NCBI RefSeq assembly: GCF_000012305.1
Contig: NC_007204.1
Span: forward strand, 2,046,001 to 2,110,000
Direction of reading: 5' to 3'
Length of the DNA: 64,000 nucleotides
DNA from: Psychrobacter arcticus 273-4
GTDB lineage: Bacteria; Pseudomonadota; Gammaproteobacteria; Pseudomonadales; Moraxellaceae
The notes under the pieces were generated by a model, which saw only the letters and a list, made by a program, of their open reading frames with translations, searched no databases and was not told where the DNA came from. Shown here one piece after another: positions 39,665 to 48,258 of this stretch; position 1 is the first letter of the stretch; every line of letters begins with the position of its first letter. The position numbers and the translations under genes are program-made.

Positions 39665-42571
39665 ATGGCACACGAGTATATTAAGGTTCGCGGCGCACGC
39701 ACTCATAATCTAAAAAATATCGATTTAGACATTCCACGAGATAAATTCGTGGTCATTACTGGTTTATCAGGTTCTGGTAAATCGTCATTGGCATTCGATA
39801 CCCTTTATGCTGAAGGCCAACGTCGTTATGTCGAGAGCTTATCGGCGTATGCGCGTCAGTTCCTCTCGCAGATGGAGAAGCCGGACGTCGATAGTATCGA
39901 GGGCTTATCACCAGCGATTGCTATCGAGCAAAAATCGACCAACCATAACCCACGCTCAACGGTCGGTACGATTACCGAGATTTATGACTACTTGCGCCTG
40001 CTCTATGCGCGTATCGGCACGCCTTATTGCCCAGAGCATGGCGAGCCAATGGTCGCACAGTCGGTGACTGAAATGGTCGATCAAGTCATGGCGTTGCCCG
40101 ATGATACGAAGATTATGATTCTTGCGCCCGTGATTCGTGAACGTAAAGGCGAGCATACCGTCTTACTTGAGCAGTTGATTGGTCAAGGCTTTGTACGCGT
40201 GCGCGTCGATGGTGATGTCTACGATACCGACGAGCTACCGACACTCGATAAGAAGAAAAAACATACCATTGAAGTCGTGGTTGATCGCTTTAAAGTCCGT
40301 GATGACTTGGGTAATCGTGTCGCTGAAAGCTTGGAGACAGCACTGCGCTTGGGTCAAGGGCTGGTCACGCTACATTTTATGGATGGCAACCCAAAAGAAG
40401 GCGGTGATGAAAACCAAGTGATGTCAGCCAAGCACTCTTGTCCTGTTTGTGATCGCGCAGTGTCTGAGCTTGAGCCGCGCATGTTCAGTTTTAACAACCC
40501 GTACGGTGCTTGCCCAAGTTGTGATGGTCTCGGTAAACGTCAGTATTTTTCTGCTGAAAAGCTGATCACCCATCATGAAAAATCGCTCAATCAAGGTGCG
40601 ATTAATGGTTGGGATAAGCGTCATGCCTATTACTTTGGTCTGCTCTCTACCGTCTGCAATCATTTTAAAATCGATATGGATGCACCGTGGCAAGAGCTGC
40701 CAAAAGCGCAGCAAGATATCATCATGCAGGGTTCTGGTAAAGAAAAGCTCACCTTTAACTTTACTGATGAGCGCGGTCGAAAAACCAATACAACCGTACC
40801 ATTTGAAGGTGTACTGCCTTATTTAGAGCGCCGTTATGCCAAAACCCAAAGCAACCTAGTCCGTGACGAGTTAGCTAAATACTTGGCTGATACTACTTGT
40901 AACGTCTGCGATGGTGCACGTTTGAATGAGATCTCACGCAATGTCCGCGTTGACGATCAAACGATTGCTGAAATTGTCAAACTATCTATCGGTGATGCCG
41001 CTGAATATTATAAAACAATAAAAATTGGTGGTCATAAAGGCGAAGTTGCAGAAAAAATCTTTAAAGAGATTAATGAGCGTCTAAACTTCCTCGTCAGTGT
41101 CGGACTTGATTACCTGTCGCTTGCGCGCTCTGCTGAAACGCTATCAGGCGGTGAAGCGCAACGTATTCGTCTTGCCAGCCAAATTGGTGCAGGTCTGATG
41201 GGTGTGATGTATGTACTCGATGAGCCATCCATCGGTCTACATCAGCGCGATAATGATCGCTTGCTAAAAACCTTAACGCGCTTGCGTGATTTGGGTAATA
41301 CCGTACTGGTCGTTGAGCACGATGAAGATGCCATTCGCCAAGCGGATCATGTCATCGATATCGGTGTCGGCGCCGGCATACATGGCGGTCACATTATTGC
41401 CCAAGGCACAGTCGATGACATCATGGCGAATAAAGAATCGCTGACTGGACAATATATGTCTGGTAAGAGGAAAATCGAGATTCCAGCCATTCGTCATAAA
41501 GCCAAAACTATCGATATGGAAGTCAAAGGTAAAGCTAAGCCCAAACAAGTTCCGATGACTATTGAGCTCAAAGGCGCATCAGGCAACAACTTACACGACG
41601 TTGACTTGACCTTGCCAATAGGCATAATGACTTGTATTACTGGGGTATCGGGTTCAGGTAAATCAACCTTGATTAACCGTACCTTAATGCCATTGGCAGC
41701 GACGCAGTTAAATAATGCCTCAACGCTCATCGCGGATAAGCATGACAGCATCAGCGGTCTTGAGCATTTGGACAAAATGGTCGATATCGATCAAAGCCCC
41801 ATTGGTCGTACGCCGCGCTCAAATCCAGCGACGTATACTGGCGTGTTTACGCCTGTTCGTGAAATGTTTGCACAAACGCAAGAAGCGCGTGCTCGTGGTT
41901 ATAAAGCTGGTCGCTTTAGCTTCAACGTCAAAGGCGGACGCTGCGAGATGTGTCAAGGTGATGGTCTTATCAAGGTCGAGATGCACTTTTTGCCCGACAT
42001 GTATGTGCCGTGTGATACTTGTGAAGGCAAGCGCTATAATCGCGAGACTTTAGAGATTCACTATAAAGGTAAAAACATCGCCGACGTCCTAGATATGACC
42101 GTTGAAGATGCCACTGAGTTTTTCTCTGCCATTCCAGCGATTTACCGTCGTTTGCAAGCATTAATGGATGTCGGTTTAAGCTATATCCGCTTGGGTCAGT
42201 CTGCACCGACGTTATCAGGTGGTGAAGCGCAGCGGGTTAAATTAGCACGTGAGCTGGCGAAGCGTGATACCGGACAGACGCTGTATATCTTGGATGAGCC
42301 AACTACTGGTTTGCATTTCCATGATATCGATAAGCTACTCCATATCCTGCATGCGCTACGCGATAAAGGGAATACCATCGTGGTCATTGAGCACAATCTT
42401 GACGTAATTAAAACTGCGGATTGGGTGATTGATTTGGGTCCTGAAGGTGGTAAAGGTGGTGGACTGATTATCGCGGAAGGTACGCCTGAGGAAGTGGCAG
42501 AAGTCAAAGGCTCGTATACTGGTGAGTTCTTGAAGCCGATGCTTAAGCAAGCGATGAAAGAAGTGAGCTAA
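39665..42571 (+). CDS. uvrA: Excinuclease ABC subunit A
   Basis: A 968-residue dual ABC-type ATPase that finds bulky lesions for nucleotide excision repair with UvrB. Walker A motifs are [15 protein letters not shown] (about 30) and [15 protein letters not shown] (about 660); ABC signatures are [16 protein letters not shown] and [17 protein letters not shown]. Zinc modules use CPVCDRAV...CPSCDGLGK and CEMCQGDG...[10 protein letters not shown]. Slightly longer than the E. coli protein (940). A spacer of about 12 bases separates AGGAAA from the ATG. It is transcribed alone and ends in a strong terminator. Confidence 0.97.
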
Positions 42572-42593
42572 TAAAAATTAGTGAATTGTTGAT

Positions 42594-42628
42594 GAAAGGC
42601 TACTCTTTAGGGAGTGGCCTTTTTTTTG
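42594..42628 (+). terminator. Terminator of uvrA
   Basis: AAAGGCTACTC pairs with GAGTGGCCTTT around TTTAGG, followed by eight T. Confidence 0.88.
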
Positions 42629-42731
42629 TTTGCGAGAAGGAATAAAGAAAATCACTGCTTTGCCCCGACGCAAGAAAAAATCTATGACTTTCTGAAGACA
42701 AATGGGATGTAGCCATTCCCGATTTTCGCTA

Positions 42732-43664
42732 CTACCTGCCTTTAAATTGCCTACTCACTATGACATTAACACTTGTCATGCTTGAGTCTTCAAATATAGC
42801 TGAATCTTGAGTAAGCTTCATAGTTGTAGTGCAAAAAATAGCGTAACTATCCCCTATAGTTTCGGTTACTTTAAGTGTTTGTTCTAAGCTAAGAGAACTA
42901 CTAGCACTCATTACACAAATTATATCTTTAATATCAGTCGGATGAATTCCAACTTTACTTAATCCTTCTAAATAATCACTCTTGAAATTATTCTTATTTT
43001 TGTCGCTTGCATACATATTAGGAAGTATATTTAGTAATCTGTTACTACTAAATACTTGTTTCCAATCATTAAAGTCATACCCTATCATAGAGTCATCCTG
43101 CCTATAAACGGTACAAACTGTCGTTATGACTGAATCTACAAAGGAATAATAAAAATTATAGCTCTCACTGTGCATGTCGTTTAAAAAATCATTTTTGGCT
43201 TGTGATGTCATAAAAGGTACAGAAAAAGTAGGAATAAGTGACAATGTATTAATCTTACTTTTTAAAATATTTTTTGGTTCAGTTTTGAAGCCACTTATTT
43301 CATCTATAGTTGAAGGTACGATTGCACAAGTTAATGCTTGAATAGAAGCTATTTCATCGTGAATGGCAAACAAAGCATCAAAGGAAGCTTCATTTTCAAT
43401 TAAAAAAACTATAACTTTTTGACTTTCGAGGTGTGCATTCCTATCGACCTCGGTCAAACTCTGTAAAACGTCTAAGCTAATTGCTTTGAAATCCAAATCT
43501 TCGCAACCAAGCTCTAAATAGTTATCAGAGGCTTTGTCAAACTTATCTTTCCCTATATTTTGGGCTACTTTTTCTGTTTTTTGTCCTGTAGTGACGAACA
43601 TAAAGCCTTTAGGGCCTTTATATTCAGATAAATCACTTAAACTATATTTAGAGGAACGACTCAT
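42732..43664 (-). CDS. Divergent FtsZ/tubulin-like protein lacking the GTP loop
   Basis: A 310-residue protein with no obvious named family, but its segments line up in order with FtsZ. FMFVTTGQKTEKVAQNIG (21-38) corresponds to strand 1 and the first nucleotide loop. NYLELGCEDLDF (49-60) corresponds to FIAINTDAQ. QKVIVFLIENEASFDALFA (82-100) falls where GGGTGTG should be. ALTCAIVP (110-117) and INTLSLIPTF (138-147) correspond to ALTVAVVT and VDTLIVIPN. GYDFNDWKQVF (195-205) corresponds to the catalytic T7 loop NVDFADVKTVM. A C-terminal sandwich (249-305) follows. Glycine loops are lost while Asp197 and Asp200 of T7 remain. The gene is AT-rich, lies beside an IS and is divergent from a nuclease gene. 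The role is unknown. Confidence 0.55.
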   Translation of the reverse strand: MSRSSKYSLSDLSEYKGPKGFMFVTTGQKTEKVAQNIGKDKFDKASDNYLELGCEDLDFKAISLDVLQSLTEVDRNAHLESQKVIVFLIENEASFDALFAIHDEIASIQALTCAIVPSTIDEISGFKTEPKNILKSKINTLSLIPTFSVPFMTSQAKNDFLNDMHSESYNFYYSFVDSVITTVCTVYRQDDSMIGYDFNDWKQVFSSNRLLNILPNMYASDKNKNNFKSDYLEGLSKVGIHPTDIKDIICVMSASSSLSLEQTLKVTETIGDSYAIFCTTTMKLTQDSAIFEDSSMTSVNVIVSRQFKGR

Positions 43665-43743
43665 AATAATGAACTCTATAAAGGCTTTAAAAACGTGTGA
43701 CCCCTGCTGTCAAATCCGTACAGTTAAACTTGGGAGATTTTAA

Positions 43744-44613
43744 TTACGCAGCATGACGATAAAAGTCAAACCACACCTGTCTTGGCGATTTATAGCCCAA
43801 GCCCTTTTGAATCCTAGTCTGATTGTAATACAGCTCGATATATCTAATGATATCGGTAATGGCTGTAAACCTTGTTTTATAGTCTTGATGATATACCAGC
43901 TCATTCTTTAATGTGCCCCAGAAGCTTTCTATGGGTGCGTTGTCATAACAATTACCTTTGCCACTCATTGAGCCTTTAAAATGATGCTGCTTGATAATAT
44001 TATGGTACGCATGGCTACAATACTGGCTGCCTCTATCGGAATGCACAGTCAGCCCTTGGCTTGGCCCTTTATTCTTAATTGCCATATTAAGTGCACGGCA
44101 AACCAAATCAGCAGTCATGCGCTTATTGATGGCATATCCAACAAGCTCTTTGGTGTATAAGTCCTTAACCCCCGCTAAATACAACCAGCCCTCAAGCGTC
44201 CAAATATAGGTGATGTCACTGACCCACGCTTGGTTAGGGCGACTGGCATCAAACTTCTGATCCAGTACGTTTGGATAGACCAGCTTGTTGTGATTGGAGT
44301 CGGTGGTGACTTTAAAGCGTTTGTGGCGACGGCATTTGATGCCATGTTCTTCTTTGATGCTTCTAACCATATATTGGCTGATATCGTGCCCTTGCGCACT
44401 TAGGTGGGCATGCAGTCGATCTACGCCATAGCACTGCTTGGTCTCAGTATGAGCGACTTTAACCAGTAGTTCACACTGATTGCGATGTATCTGTTGGTCG
44501 CTGAGATCACGACTTAGCCAGTCGTAATAGCTTGATGGCTTAACACTTAGCACGCGGCACATAGTGGTGATGCTAAAGAAGTGCTGGTTATCTTTGATAA
44601 AGGCGTACCTCAC
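43744..44613 (-). CDS. IS3-family transposase OrfB (DDE integrase core)
   Basis: A 289-residue integrase-type catalytic subunit. The acidic triad falls in WVSDITYIW, TVHSDRGSQYCS and PIESFWGTLKNEL; HTH_21-like sequence (QCYGVDRLHAHLSAQGHDIS) is N-terminal. Its GTG start overlaps the OrfA stop by one base. A -1 shift at the A6G run would join OrfA to this frame without a stop, giving the OrfAB transposase that IS3 elements use. The frame is intact, so the element may be active. Confidence 0.93.
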   Translation of the reverse strand: MRYAFIKDNQHFFSITTMCRVLSVKPSSYYDWLSRDLSDQQIHRNQCELLVKVAHTETKQCYGVDRLHAHLSAQGHDISQYMVRSIKEEHGIKCRRHKRFKVTTDSNHNKLVYPNVLDQKFDASRPNQAWVSDITYIWTLEGWLYLAGVKDLYTKELVGYAINKRMTADLVCRALNMAIKNKGPSQGLTVHSDRGSQYCSHAYHNIIKQHHFKGSMSGKGNCYDNAPIESFWGTLKNELVYHQDYKTRFTAITDIIRYIELYYNQTRIQKGLGYKSPRQVWFDFYRHAA

Positions 44614-44909
44614 TAACTGTGCCTTGCAAAGTACGCCGTCGCCTTTTTTAGGATCTCTCGTTCCTCCTCGGCAACTTTAAGCTGTCGTTTGAGGCGTTTG
44701 TTTTCTTCGATCACTGCTATGAGTTCAGGATCATATTGAGCTGTTCCCTCAAGTTTGCCTTGATTGGCTTTATTGTGCCAATTAGATAAGGTCTGCATGG
44801 CGATACCAAGCTGCTTTGCAGTCGCTGAAATATTCCCATCGTTGTCCGCTATCTTCTTGACGGCTTCTGCTTTGAATTCTGCACTATAGGTTCTGATTTT
44901 CTTGGTCAT
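44613..44909 (-). CDS. IS3-family transposase OrfA
   Basis: A 98-residue helix-turn-helix protein (SAEFKAEAVKKIADNDGNISATAKQLGIAMQTLSNW) with a C-terminal leucine-zipper-like helix (LIAVIEENKRLKRQLKVAEEEREILKKA). It binds IS ends and regulates transposition. The slippery AAAAAAG lies in its last codons (ILKKA), the normal site for programmed -1 frameshifting in this family. CAGGAGT precedes the ATG. Confidence 0.93.
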   Translation of the reverse strand: MTKKIRTYSAEFKAEAVKKIADNDGNISATAKQLGIAMQTLSNWHNKANQGKLEGTAQYDPELIAVIEENKRLKRQLKVAEEEREILKKATAYFARHS

Positions 44910-44973
44910 GGTAAACTCCTGTTGTTGTGCTTAGTTTACCAAGTTTACTTGTACGGTTTCTTCAGCATAGCTC

Positions 44974-45017
44974 AGTGTATATGTTAACTTGTTAAGATCA
45001 ATTTGATAATATACACT
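44974..45017 (+). promoter_or_regulatory. Operator-like inverted repeats ahead of the nuclease gene
   Basis: AGTGTATAT (44974-44982) and ATATACACT (45009-45017) are an exact 9-bp inverted repeat with a 26-bp spacer. Within the spacer, TTAAC-TT-GTTAA forms a second palindrome. The pair lies 17-60 bp upstream of the nuclease start and begins 7 bp after the IS, so it belongs to the host module. Such a layout would suit a repressor or autoregulation. Confidence 0.45.
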
Positions 45018-45033
45018 AAAATTATTAGGAAAG

Positions 45034-46329
45034 ATGACTATGCTTGGCGAAAATTTTAAACAAAATATTTCAAATTTACAGGATAAGGAACAAGCCTCTC
45101 TAAAGAATCATAATGATACAAAACTAGATTTTAATATATTTACGATCTTACGTAAGATAGGCGAAGAAGTTGGTTTGCACTCTCGTTTTCTTGCCGAACT
45201 ACTCAATAAAGATGCTAGTCATAAAACAGCAGACTTTCAACAGTTATTCATTGAAACAGTATTAAATAACGCCATAGCAACACAAGAATGGAATCGAGAA
45301 AAATTAAGCTCTAAAGATGACTACAGTTGTGAAATTGAATATAGTTTTCGTAATTCAGATCATGGTAGAGCTGATATCATTCTCAAAAACAAAAAAAACG
45401 TTATTGTTGTCGAAAACAAGATTTATGCTTTTGATCAAAAAGGTCAACTGGCTAAATATTATAAAGCTTGCCAAGAATTGGGCTATGACGATAAAAATAT
45501 TTACATAGTATATTTAAATCGTTTTGGGGATAATGTGTCGCCTTATGGTCAGGGAGATATTAGTAATGATGACTATGGCGTAATTAGCTACAAGGAAGAT
45601 ATTTTTAACTTTTTGACGCTATGTAAGGCAAAGGTAGTAGGTTATCCGCATATAGAGCAAACTATTGAGCAGTACATCAATACCGTTGCCAGGATTACAG
45701 GGCAAACAAGGGATGCAAAAATGAAACAAGAATATGTAGACTTTCTAGCAGATAGCAATAACTTTAAAACTATATACAAACTGAGCCAGAACTTTGAAAC
45801 TATTCAAAAAAATATTCAAAAAGAGATGTGGAACGACCTATTAGCTTATTTTGAAGAAAAAAATCTAGCATTTTCCTTTTGTGATAATCAGCTTTTACCT
45901 TATAGCCAAGAAAAAGCAGTAGAACAGTACTATTCAGGAGGTGGTAAGAAAGGCAAAGCTAAGACGTATGGACTTTTCTATAAAATAGTTGAGAGAGATA
46001 ACGTAGACGTTTATTGTTATATCGAGTTAAATAATCGTTTGTACTATAGCATAACACTAGCAGAGAAAGATGGATTACGTCTACTAGAATATCCCAGCGA
46101 AATGGAAGAATTTAATAATCAAGTTATAGCATTACGTAGAAACTGGGAAGGTAAAAATAAGAAGAAAAATCTAGGTGGGATTATTTATCCGCAACGCCCA
46201 GTTAATTTCAAGAAGCCTAAAGATAATTTTTTCGATATTGTGAATGAGAGTAGTCGCAAAGAGTGGGTTGCTGAAACTGCTGATGATATCATTCAGCTAA
46301 TTGATGATGTAAAAAACATTAATCTCTGA
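45034..46329 (+). CDS. PD-(D/E)XK nuclease-family protein
   Basis: A 431-residue protein. The N-terminal half matches the PDDEXK_4 type of restriction-endonuclease fold: LHSRFLAELLNKDASHK (48-64), the metal aspartate in GRADIIL (Asp114), VVENKI (Glu127, Lys129) and the following FDQKGQLAKYY. The C-terminal half (about 230-431) is unassigned, Lys/Asn-rich and without motifs I know. AGGA lies three bases before the first ATG and nine before a second at 45040, so the second (MLGENF) may be the true start. Neighbours suggest a defence-type role, which is unproven. Composition is AT-richer than the core genes. Confidence 0.8.
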   Translation: MTMLGENFKQNISNLQDKEQASLKNHNDTKLDFNIFTILRKIGEEVGLHSRFLAELLNKDASHKTADFQQLFIETVLNNAIATQEWNREKLSSKDDYSCEIEYSFRNSDHGRADIILKNKKNVIVVENKIYAFDQKGQLAKYYKACQELGYDDKNIYIVYLNRFGDNVSPYGQGDISNDDYGVISYKEDIFNFLTLCKAKVVGYPHIEQTIEQYINTVARITGQTRDAKMKQEYVDFLADSNNFKTIYKLSQNFETIQKNIQKEMWNDLLAYFEEKNLAFSFCDNQLLPYSQEKAVEQYYSGGGKKGKAKTYGLFYKIVERDNVDVYCYIELNNRLYYSITLAEKDGLRLLEYPSEMEEFNNQVIALRRNWEGKNKKKNLGGIIYPQRPVNFKKPKDNFFDIVNESSRKEWVAETADDIIQLIDDVKNINL

Positions 46330-46397
46330 TAAGCATCATTGCATCTTACCAAACAGTATCATCAATTCATGAAAGTCGCCTAGAGACGCGGTTTAGC

Positions 46398-46532
46398 CCC
46401 GATTGTAGCGGTTATTCTGCTCAATTGGACAAGTTGCGAGGACCAGATTTTGGCTTGGCTACGCGGAGCAAGAGACAGGACAAACCGTAGCCCTCGCCTC
46501 GTATCAATGAGCAGATATGAGCGAAAAGCGGG
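46398..46532. other. Nested inverted-repeat segment, candidate structured RNA or small mobile repeat
   Basis: Three nested stems lie in the 226-bp space between the nuclease gene and DUF503: TCTGCTCAATTG with CAATGAGCAGA (46416-46427 / 46505-46515), GCGAGG with CCTCGC (46436-46441 / 46492-46497) and GGCTACG with CGTAGCC (46457-46463 / 46486-46492). An outer CCCG/CGGG pair is possible. The segment is GC-richer than the flanks and does not match the 138-bp family. Identity unknown. Confidence 0.4.
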
Positions 46533-46555
46533 ATTGGCTCCCCAAAAAGCCCAAA

Positions 46556-46837
46556 CTAAACAAACTCTCTTTCAACATTCATCACCCGCGCATCCACTGT
46601 ACGCTCTATCTTGTCTTCGATTTGACTACACAACGACTCGACCTCACGTTTGGACAGCCCTACTACAACGAGCGTCCATTCGCTGGCATCATGCCGATCA
46701 CGCTCACCGCTTTCACAGACCGCGACGCTTGGCGTATTGCCAAAGCGGGCATGCAAGCCGACCATGCGCTGGCGTTTCTCCTTTAATGAGCCACATCCGG
46801 GCAGAGAAAAAGTCAGCGTTAAGATGGCAATATGCAT
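46556..46837 (-). CDS. DUF503-family protein
   Basis: A 93-residue protein with the DUF503 (YlxP-like) signature: N-terminal strand MHIAILTLTFSLPGCGSLKEKRQR, then VAVCESGERD and TLVVVGLSKREVESLCSQIEDKIE. In Gram-positives relatives sit in the nusA-infB-rbfA region and are linked to ribosome maturation; the role here is not known. AAGGAG precedes the ATG, giving a firm start. Two longer plus-strand ORFs over the same bases are shadows. It is divergent from yjjP. Confidence 0.85.
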   Translation of the reverse strand: MHIAILTLTFSLPGCGSLKEKRQRMVGLHARFGNTPSVAVCESGERDRHDASEWTLVVVGLSKREVESLCSQIEDKIERTVDARVMNVEREFV

Positions 46838-47000: not shown

Positions 47001-47804
47001 ATGACTTCTATCAGCTACGTACAGCAACAGCACATTACTCGATTATGCGTGCGCTGCGGATTACTCCTTATGCAATATGGCGCTGAGTCTGCCGTGGTGG
47101 TGGACTTATCCAAACGCTTGGGGCTTGCCTTGGGCATGAACAGCGTAGAATGTTCGCTAAATTTTAACGCCATTACCTTGACCACTATCTGTGATGAGCG
47201 CTGTATCACCACCACCAGAGACACGATCAATCAGAGCATCAATGTCAATGTATTGGTACAAATTCAGCAAATCGTTAATAAAACTGAATCTACTATAGAT
47301 AATGCTGAGCTGAAGTCTGAGCTAACTGACCGCACCACCCTTGCGTTTGATGAGTTAGATAATAAGTCGGTGTATCCAACATGGTTGGTAGGCGTGTTTG
47401 TTGGCGCATCTTGTGCCGCGTTTGCTTATCTAAATGGTGGCAGTTGGTCAATTACCGCCGTAACCTTTATCGCAGGTATGGTAGCGATGTTCACCCGTAT
47501 TTACCTGTCCAAACACCATTTTAATCCCTTTATAGCGGTCATTGTGACGGCTTTTATCGCTTCTTTAATTGGGGCAACGACCTACTATTTTGATATTGGT
47601 AATAATGCTGATATCGCCGTTGCCTCAAGCGTGCTTTTACTAGTTCCAAGCTTTCCATTGATCAATTCTTTCTCAGATATTTTAAAAGGCTATGTCAATA
47701 TTGGCGTTGGCCGTGCCGTTTTTACCTATATGCTAACCTTATCAGCGTGCGTTGGTATCGTGATGGCGCTGGTCTTACTTCGCATACAGCACTGGGGGTT
47801 TTGA
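47001..47804 (+). CDS. yjjP: YjjP, ThrE-family exporter subunit
   Basis: A 267-residue protein of the DUF1212/ThrE family. A soluble N-terminal domain (RLCVRCGLLLMQYGAESAVV, GLALGMNSVECSLNFNAITLT) is followed by five hydrophobic helices from about residue 125. The family exports threonine and serine, and in E. coli YjjP and YjjB together export succinate. The next gene begins one base after its stop and supplies the partner subunit. A hairpin with 8-bp arms (46889-46919) lies in the region shared with DUF503. Confidence 0.88.
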   Translation: MTSISYVQQQHITRLCVRCGLLLMQYGAESAVVVDLSKRLGLALGMNSVECSLNFNAITLTTICDERCITTTRDTINQSINVNVLVQIQQIVNKTESTIDNAELKSELTDRTTLAFDELDNKSVYPTWLVGVFVGASCAAFAYLNGGSWSITAVTFIAGMVAMFTRIYLSKHHFNPFIAVIVTAFIASLIGATTYYFDIGNNADIAVASSVLLLVPSFPLINSFSDILKGYVNIGVGRAVFTYMLTLSACVGIVMALVLLRIQHWGF

Positions 47805-47805
47805 G

Positions 47806-48258
47806 ATGTGGTTCATTAAAACCGTGGTGCTGTCCTGTATCATTACCCTTGGTTGGACGCTGATGTTCAGCGTTCCCAAACGCTATATTTTGCCGTGTTT
47901 ATTGATGACCGCGTTTGGATTTGGACTAAAAACGGCGCTTGTCTATCAGCATATCCATCTGGTGGTTGCCAGCTTTTTTGGGGCGATGCTTGCCAGCTTT
48001 TTGGGCGTGTATTTTTCTAAAAAATATACCCTACCGCCCAAAGCATTAATCTCACCAAGTGTCATCTGTATGATGCCTGGTATCGCCGCTTATAAGGCGA
48101 TGGTCAGTATGGTACAGATTGGCTATTTTGGCTTTTCAGACGAATTATTTAGCCAAATGATGGTGTATTTGTTTGAGGCTTTATTTGTGACTTCAGGATT
48201 GGTGCTGGGCTTGTCCATTCCTGGACTGTTATTTTATAGGCGGCGTGCCATTGTGTAG
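47806..48258 (+). CDS. yjjB: YjjB, ThrE-family exporter subunit
   Basis: A 150-residue membrane protein with four to five helices. The central ISPSVICMMPGIAAYKAM is typical of the DUF3815 / ThrE_2 half of these exporters. It begins immediately after yjjP (TGAGATG), so the two should be made together and form one transporter. Length fits E. coli YjjB (157 residues). It is followed by a copy of the 138-bp element and then gor. Confidence 0.9.
   Translation: MWFIKTVVLSCIITLGWTLMFSVPKRYILPCLLMTAFGFGLKTALVYQHIHLVVASFFGAMLASFLGVYFSKKYTLPPKALISPSVICMMPGIAAYKAMVSMVQIGYFGFSDELFSQMMVYLFEALFVTSGLVLGLSIPGLLFYRRRAIV

Follow-up and report, generated by a model that had tools for sequence, protein, structure and literature searches.

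In a stretch of 64,000 nucleotides from Psychrobacter arcticus 273-4 (contig NC_007204.1, positions 2,046,001 to 2,110,000; hereafter the window), whose genome is 1 contig of 2.65 Mb, we have identified a gene, P0001, whose product, judged by its sequence links and its modelled fold, is a divergent paralogue of FtsZ. This identification is made because of three results: the scores of a hidden Markov model (HMM) of a bridging family, a predicted structure that matches FtsZ, and a profile search of whole genomes. P0001 goes together with a wider group of FtsZ derivatives, shortened at the N terminus and located in defence islands, here called the FZ family; we regard the family as new, although its superfamily is known, and its setting as new too. 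The role that we favour, with a probability of roughly 40% argued from the comparisons below, is that of a decoy or sensor for phage inhibitors of FtsZ, by which the neighbouring PD-(D/E)XK nuclease would be controlled.

P0001 is a real protein gene. Its family was matched in 6 of 348 genomes of the same bacterial family, all of them Psychrobacter, as five intact copies (the window's included) and one broken remnant. The other intact copies are 64–69% identical to the window's protein, and the ratio of nonsynonymous to synonymous substitution rates (dN/dS) is 0.27–0.33 between the window's gene and these four and 0.24–0.34 over all ten pairs, which is why we regard the gene as constrained, though it evolves faster than its flanks (uvrA, MFS, DUF503 and ThrE genes, 87–99% identical across the orthologous loci).

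Kinship with FtsZ

A preliminary description, made from the letters of the window alone, had presented P0001 as a degenerate FtsZ-like protein. The open reading frame (ORF) is as it had described, and the segments that it had quoted, IENEASFDALFA (residues 89–100), INTLSLIPTF (138–147) and GYDFNDWKQVF (195–205), are all present. The FtsZ-like identity that it had proposed is borne out by the bridge HMM, by an AlphaFold2 model made without FtsZ rows and by a fold match over residues 11–307.

The bridge was found through a decoy of a glocal alignment test, a leucine-rich-repeat (LRR) protein (L041/L061) that reached a Z of 6.8 with the C-domain of the FtsZ of the source genome (hereafter own FtsZ). 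Its last 200 residues are FtsZ-like and its gene sits directly behind a gene for a PDC-S26-type nuclease; a shorter relative (L062:2950-3624, 224 amino acids, aa) gave entry to the FZ family. Of 249 genomes from this bacterial family 43 contain FZ proteins, in 2 of 16 genera, and the source genome has two further FZ genes (G000:C1:1664340-1666260, locus L183) that adjoin DUF1810 and GmrSD-like genes. One Psychrobacter plasmid record carries the family, and a search of the phage collection found it in no phage record. When 1,270 ORFs from the fetched loci were searched with HMMs in repeated rounds, the set converged on 72 proteins, the five P0001 copies being drawn in.

To avoid circularity, the bridge HMM was built from 60 full-length FZ proteins without the P0001 family and without FtsZ, and was run with all search filters off. 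It scored 43.2 bits with own FtsZ (E 2.3e-12) and 19.5–22.0 bits with the P0001 copies, five out of five (E 7e-6 to 4.3e-5), against E 0.08 for the best of 1,198 decoy ORFs; among 105 copies with shuffled or reversed sequence the lowest E was 1.3. The aligned region is the H7-T7-C-domain part of FtsZ and residues 176–272 of P0001 (strand, helix and loop names follow the standard FtsZ nomenclature). Thirty of the 31 entries of the FtsZ set outscored the best decoy. The remaining entry, L079, had been extracted in the wrong frame and is no FtsZ; it was included in the FtsZ sets of the FZ-HMM, HHalign, semi-global and glocal tests alike. A profile of the P0001 family and FZ together, searched against 234 whole genomes of the order, matched 139 of them; among the matches listed outside Psychrobacter, the ORFs are of FtsZ size (294–466 aa), and in all eight genomes compared (the source genome, G271, G773, G834, G618, G711, G786 and G230) the match lies inside the coordinates of FtsZ.

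The predicted structure points the same way. From the five copies only, AlphaFold2 gave a predicted local distance difference test score (pLDDT) of 35 and a model with generic Rossmann-type matches, FtsZ being absent among the rows listed, and this model was given no weight. The second input (alignment A5) added 38 FZ proteins and no FtsZ row; only their C-terminal halves were used because the MAFFT alignment (A4) misplaces the N-terminal part. Mean pLDDT rose from 35 to 69.8, with a predicted template modelling score (pTM) of 0.66. The preliminary description had set fold prediction followed by Foldseek as a test of its proposal, and the best 50 PDB rows in Foldseek are all FtsZ, led by 6ll6 (E 3.8e-11, template modelling scores 0.61/0.63, root-mean-square deviation (rmsd) 7.3), while the best 50 in VIA-align are FtsZ or CetZ, with Klebsiella pneumoniae FtsZ at Z 16.4 and rmsd 4.1 over 261 aligned residues. 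In the viral structure library (BFVD) the top three places go to a phage FtsZ, a tubulin and a cell division protein, with PhuZ at rank 5; the PhuZ of phage Noxifer has E 2e-4 there, against 3.8e-11 for FtsZ in the PDB, two values that come from different libraries. The fold predicted for residues 11–307 of P0001 is accordingly that of FtsZ and tubulin, with N-domain, H7 and C-domain.

As to descent, an origin of FZ and P0001 from the FtsZ of Psychrobacter itself is likely on sequence grounds. When the FZ HMM was run on 43 entries taken as FtsZ (wrongly in the case of L079), the two from Psychrobacter scored best, at 43 and 31 bits, and those from two further genera in the family did no better than unrelated FtsZ. 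A quick-method tree joined FZ and the P0001 family beside Psychrobacter FtsZ, with a warning from the program about long branches. Of the 48 alignment members, 7 were matched by the Pfam model PF12327 (FtsZ_C; best E 0.0015), P0001 not among them, and 8 by the unrelated CttA_N (best E 0.0026), so that these matches lend the kinship weak support.

Direct comparison with FtsZ was mostly negative. Profile and sequence searches found no convincing match to P0001 in Pfam, NCBIfam, PDB sequences, PHROGs or PADLOC, TIGR00065, PF00091 and PF12327 did not match it, and the viral, plasmid and phage collections held nothing usable. HHalign of a 5-row P0001 profile against the FtsZ set of 31 scored 18.8 (mean 14.8 and top 23.9 in 300 column shuffles); repeated without L079 and without L074, a true FtsZ that the filter also dropped, it scored 19.4 (mean 14.9 and top 23.8 in 150 shuffles), still inside the null. 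The best alignment of this repeat puts residues 191–268 on FtsZ columns 204–311, the expected T7/C-domain register. Semi-global alignment with own FtsZ returned the register of the preliminary description at a Z of about 3, a value matched by one of 23 other proteins of the window; in the glocal test 2 and 1 of 87 decoys scored above P0001 with own FtsZ, and 4 and 17 of 87 did so with the mean FtsZ profile. Because of these results, an alignment by eye to FtsZ alone is no proof of kinship. Against the semi-global profile, the five copies rank 34 to 59 of 88, that is, among the decoys, perhaps because the most conserved FtsZ columns are those that were lost. Profile searches of the class sample gave ten weak matches beside the gene itself (E 0.01–0.09), which were taken as chance. 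Six of them lie in ORFs longer than 700 aa (residues 202–259 of the profile, E 0.01–0.08, ORFs of 719–761 aa in six genomes, L016-L018, L021, L022 and L024).

Lost and retained parts of FtsZ

P0001 keeps 14 of the 115 columns that are near-invariant in 20 FtsZ sequences. Among the near-invariant glycines of the N-domain only G26 has a glycine opposite it, and the GGGTGTG signature is missing from all five copies, in agreement with the loss of the GTP loops that had been claimed at the outset. The companion claim that the T7 loop is kept stands in part: both aspartates of its N-x-D-x-x-D motif, D197 and D200, are present in all five copies (by column count on four), and they make up, with F198, the three near-invariant columns kept in the T7 region, whereas the asparagine before them is replaced by glycine. 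Both aspartates are also found in 48 of 60 FZ proteins. P0001 ends at residue 310, four residues past the last predicted strand, and own FtsZ continues well beyond; judged against the model, the C-terminal linker and tail of FtsZ are absent. It is this tail that tethers FtsZ to the membrane. With the glycine-rich GTP loops and the tail both lost, P0001 is not expected to bind GTP in the ordinary manner or to be held at the membrane as FtsZ is.

Compared with FtsZ (TIGR00065, PF00091/PF12327), P0001 thus shares the two-domain fold, the H7 core helix, the T7 aspartate pair and a sequence link through FZ; it differs in its lost GTP-loop glycines, T7 asparagine, linker and tail, in having no TIGR00065 or PF00091 match and in standing at a defence site. 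FtsZl1 and FtsZl2, divergent bacterial FtsZ-like families (Makarova and Koonin 2010, PMC2875224), are different families from FZ and P0001: as described there, they are marked by the GTP signature loop and by family-specific extra regions, whereas P0001 is without the loop, counts 310 aa in all and shows the reverse pattern, with GTP loops lost, C-domain and T7 kept and a nuclease adjoining. Among the papers listed in literature searches, none appears to describe a family of the FZ/P0001 type, one query being judged on the best ten of 7,849 records.

Defence setting and possible roles

All five intact P0001 copies stand head-to-head with a PD-(D/E)XK nuclease gene, whose products are 75–84% identical to the window's; the genomes with a nuclease of at least 76% identity are the five with an intact P0001. 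Residues D114, E127 and K129 of the nuclease are invariant in the five orthologues, and the gap between the two genes is 24, 95 and 102 bp in L010, L012 and L013. The window's nuclease is a clear member of PADLOC PDC-S26 (the window and L013 nucleases were scanned), whereas no model of PADLOC 2.0.0 matches its pseudo-FtsZ partner in the three copies scanned.

The pair lies between uvrA and a DUF503 gene (window 42572-46555), an interval that in Psychrobacter is a hypervariable site rich in, and not confined to, defence genes. Of 60 further such intervals fetched (L098-L157), 42 were measurable, with 609–4,420 bp of varied cargo, and no copy of the pair was found in them. Cargo proteins were chosen by eye, ten each for PADLOC and Pfam and 11 in total out of 105 ORFs. 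Seven of the ten given to PADLOC matched at E 1e-5 or better, the matches being PDC-S49, PDC-S12 (a short C-terminal motif only), HEC-06/Orf5, AbiU, AbiH, PRTase_III-A (weakly) and PDC-S31; the Pfam matches were KAP, NACHT, SEC-C, GmrSD, AIPR, AbiH, RelA_SpoT, NADAR and DUF2971. Abortive-infection genes are among this cargo.

Elsewhere, many FZ islands (L183-L222, L061, L062) start with PP2C and WYL genes, which may mark an inducible defence locus, and carry DUF1810, PD-(D/E)XK, GmrSD-like or type I restriction genes. Three FZ proteins and one PP2C protein were scanned with PADLOC, and no model matched them at E 0.001. The gene upstream of 66 FZ-model proteins, four P0001-family rows included, encodes PD-(D/E)XK in 23 cases, WYL in 19, DUF1810 in 10, FZ in 2 and PP2C in 1, with 10 others (among them the window's, whose neighbour is an insertion sequence (IS)) and 1 contig end; without the four P0001-family rows, PD-(D/E)XK adjoins 20 of 62. 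There are several FZ paralogues per island, and some FZ domains are placed after leucine-rich repeats, fusions which suggest a sensing role. In another genus of the family, an FZ domain precedes an FtsK/SpoIIIE motor and an FtsK gamma domain (L201:3323-5215, minus strand).

FtsZ is blocked by diverse phages. In the reading that we prefer, the pseudo-FtsZ would act through its T7/C-domain face, displaying the FtsZ surface that phage division inhibitors bind; binding of such an inhibitor, or the loss of binding to host FtsZ, would release or arm the nuclease, which would then attack phage or cell DNA. This decoy or sensor is our first choice because the FtsZ elements contacted by the phage T7 protein Gp0.4 all lie in the T7/C-domain part that P0001 covers. 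As reported in a recent study (2026, PMC13423816), CapRel-Ebc is activated by Gp0.4 in complex with FtsZ, which Gp0.4 sequesters; hydrogen-deuterium exchange locates Gp0.4 at the FtsZ synergy loop and at b8-a12 and b9-b10. What is shared is an FtsZ T7/C-domain face tied to anti-phage immunity; the difference is that the co-trigger of CapRel-Ebc, as described there, is true host FtsZ, whereas here a separate FtsZ-derived protein stands in a defence locus. Immune readings of P0001 are also less odd because a 2020 survey of conflict systems (PMC7159879), so far as its available text goes, notes rare FtsZ/tubulin effector members, MinD/ParA-like and FtsK domains predicted inactive, and tubulins in GTPase-centred systems; its systems are MoxR-vWA or GTPase-centred, and a PD-(D/E)XK/WYL/LRR family of FtsZ without a GTP site is unmentioned in that text. 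The fuller proposal, that Psychrobacter turned GTP-dead copies of its own FtsZ into an immune bait wired to PD-(D/E)XK nucleases, so that a phage attack on division triggers DNA cutting, is put forward tentatively. A family of FtsZ derivatives in nuclease islands would suggest that FtsZ look-alikes are maintained by bacteria for immunity, would give the tubulin/FtsZ superfamily a branch without a GTP site and would help in testing what advantage phages draw from a halt of division, the basis of which PMC13423816 calls unclear; defence-finding programs could also be given a two-gene model of PDC-S26 and pseudo-FtsZ.

Several observations weigh against this reading. P0001 has only 52 identities with own FtsZ over 281 aligned positions, and the identity is no higher in H7-T7-H8 (6/43) or the C-domain (17/93) than in the N-domain (29/145); as to near-invariant columns, the N-domain keeps 9 of its 72, H7-T7-H8 keeps 3 of its 17 and the C-domain keeps 2 of its 26. 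Since overall likeness to FtsZ is no higher there, what speaks for a mimicked face is the T7 aspartate pair together with the conservation seen from copy to copy, and the T7 asparagine is itself replaced. Model confidence is medium, two of the five models being near pLDDT 69.8. The five close nucleases are all at one locus, so that their pairing with P0001 may have arisen once and been inherited; related genomes have FZ islands in common, so that the 23 of 66 are not independent; and in the window itself an IS separates the two genes. In five other Psychrobacter, PDC-S26 relatives of 40–44% identity occupy a different site, and the region fetched there (L053-L060) contains no FZ gene, from which it follows that the nuclease needs no adjoining FZ gene; three of these genomes (G270, G274, G303) carry FZ genes elsewhere, and at three other PDC-S26 loci no FZ gene was seen by eye within the available flanks. 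Lastly, the variable site also holds lipoprotein-, transporter- and transposase-like ORFs, as judged by eye.

The preliminary description had thought of a pseudo-GTPase able to cap, block or co-assemble with FtsZ or a phage tubulin. Given the defence context, an immune role, be it decoy, sensor or division-blocking effector, is in our judgement more likely than a partnership with a phage tubulin. As an effector, P0001 would place its T7 loop against the GTP face of the terminal FtsZ subunit, complete the active site there and cap or shorten host filaments; division would stop during infection, and the nuclease would be a second effector. The T7 aspartates, kept in the five copies and in most FZ proteins and lying within the best-conserved stretch, agree with this, as do the missing C-terminal tail and the fact that a protein without a GTP site of its own could attach to a filament only at one of its ends; FtsZ-blocking proteins are known toxins, CbtA being an example (PMC5624674). 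Yet a decoy would need the T7 loop as well, and the LRR fusions and the several FZ paralogues per island suit sensing better, so we hold the effector to be the main rival, somewhat less likely than the decoy or sensor. It seems improbable that the FtsZ fold was reused only as a scaffold or antitoxin, partnering or inhibiting the PD-(D/E)XK nuclease with cell division uninvolved: 43 of the 66 FZ-model proteins have no adjoining PD-(D/E)XK gene and a mere scaffold has no need of the T7 pair seen in 48 of 60 FZ proteins, even though the other 23 adjoin one, the pair is head-to-head in five genomes and likeness to FtsZ is no greater on the T7/C-domain face than elsewhere.

A generic alpha/beta protein with a chance resemblance would account for the failed database searches, for the HHalign scores inside the null and for the Rossmann-type matches of the first model, but it is refuted computationally by the bridge HMM, the fold match and the whole-genome profile search, and we give it very little credence. 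Hardly any weight at all falls on a decaying, functionless copy of FtsZ, of which the broken remnant in one genome (G251) might be a sign, in view of the dN/dS of 0.24–0.34 over ten pairs and of a T7 block with 43 of 50 residues invariant.

Features of the locus

The positions of the genes and of the FtsZ-derived parts of P0001 are collected in Table 1. The IS3-type element has 36-nt inverted ends, 75% complementary, and is flanked by a 3-bp GTG repeat (43695-43697 and 44975-44977); it may alter or uncouple expression of the pair in this strain.

Table 1. Features of the P0001 locus, numbered by position in the window
Feature	Position	Strand	Remarks
uvrA, left border of the variable site	39665..42571	+	
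Pseudo-FtsZ gene P0001	42732..43664	-	310 aa; both FtsZ domains, without C-terminal tail
Residues 166-215 (H7-T7-H8-S7)	43020..43169	-	best-conserved 50-residue stretch; 43/50 invariant, permutation p 0.001
Residues 194-205, T7 (synergy) loop	43050..43085	-	D197-F198-N199-D200, all four invariant in five copies; HMM alignment, column count
Residues 89-100, place of the T4 signature GGGTGTG	43365..43400	-	IENEASFDALFA; alignment and column count
Residues 24-31, place of the T1 loop	43572..43595	-	near-invariant glycines lost except one; alignment and column count
IS3-type insertion between the paired genes	43698..44974	-	rve transposase 43744-44613; HTH_Tnp_1 protein 44613-44909
PD-(D/E)XK nuclease	45034..46329	+	Pfam PF14281 (E 6e-29); PADLOC PDC-S26 (E 4e-107)
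DUF503 gene, right border of the variable site	46556..46837	-	
ThrE genes beyond DUF503	47001-47804 and 47806-48258		

In G251, the remnant of the pseudo-FtsZ gene (L014:856-1531) has two internal TGA stops and lies beside a partial second copy of the 3' end of uvrA. The Rfam model Flavo-1 matched the window at 46391-46539 on the plus strand with a score of 44.6 against a gathering threshold of 42, a match of 149 nt to a model of 76 positions which is possibly spurious.
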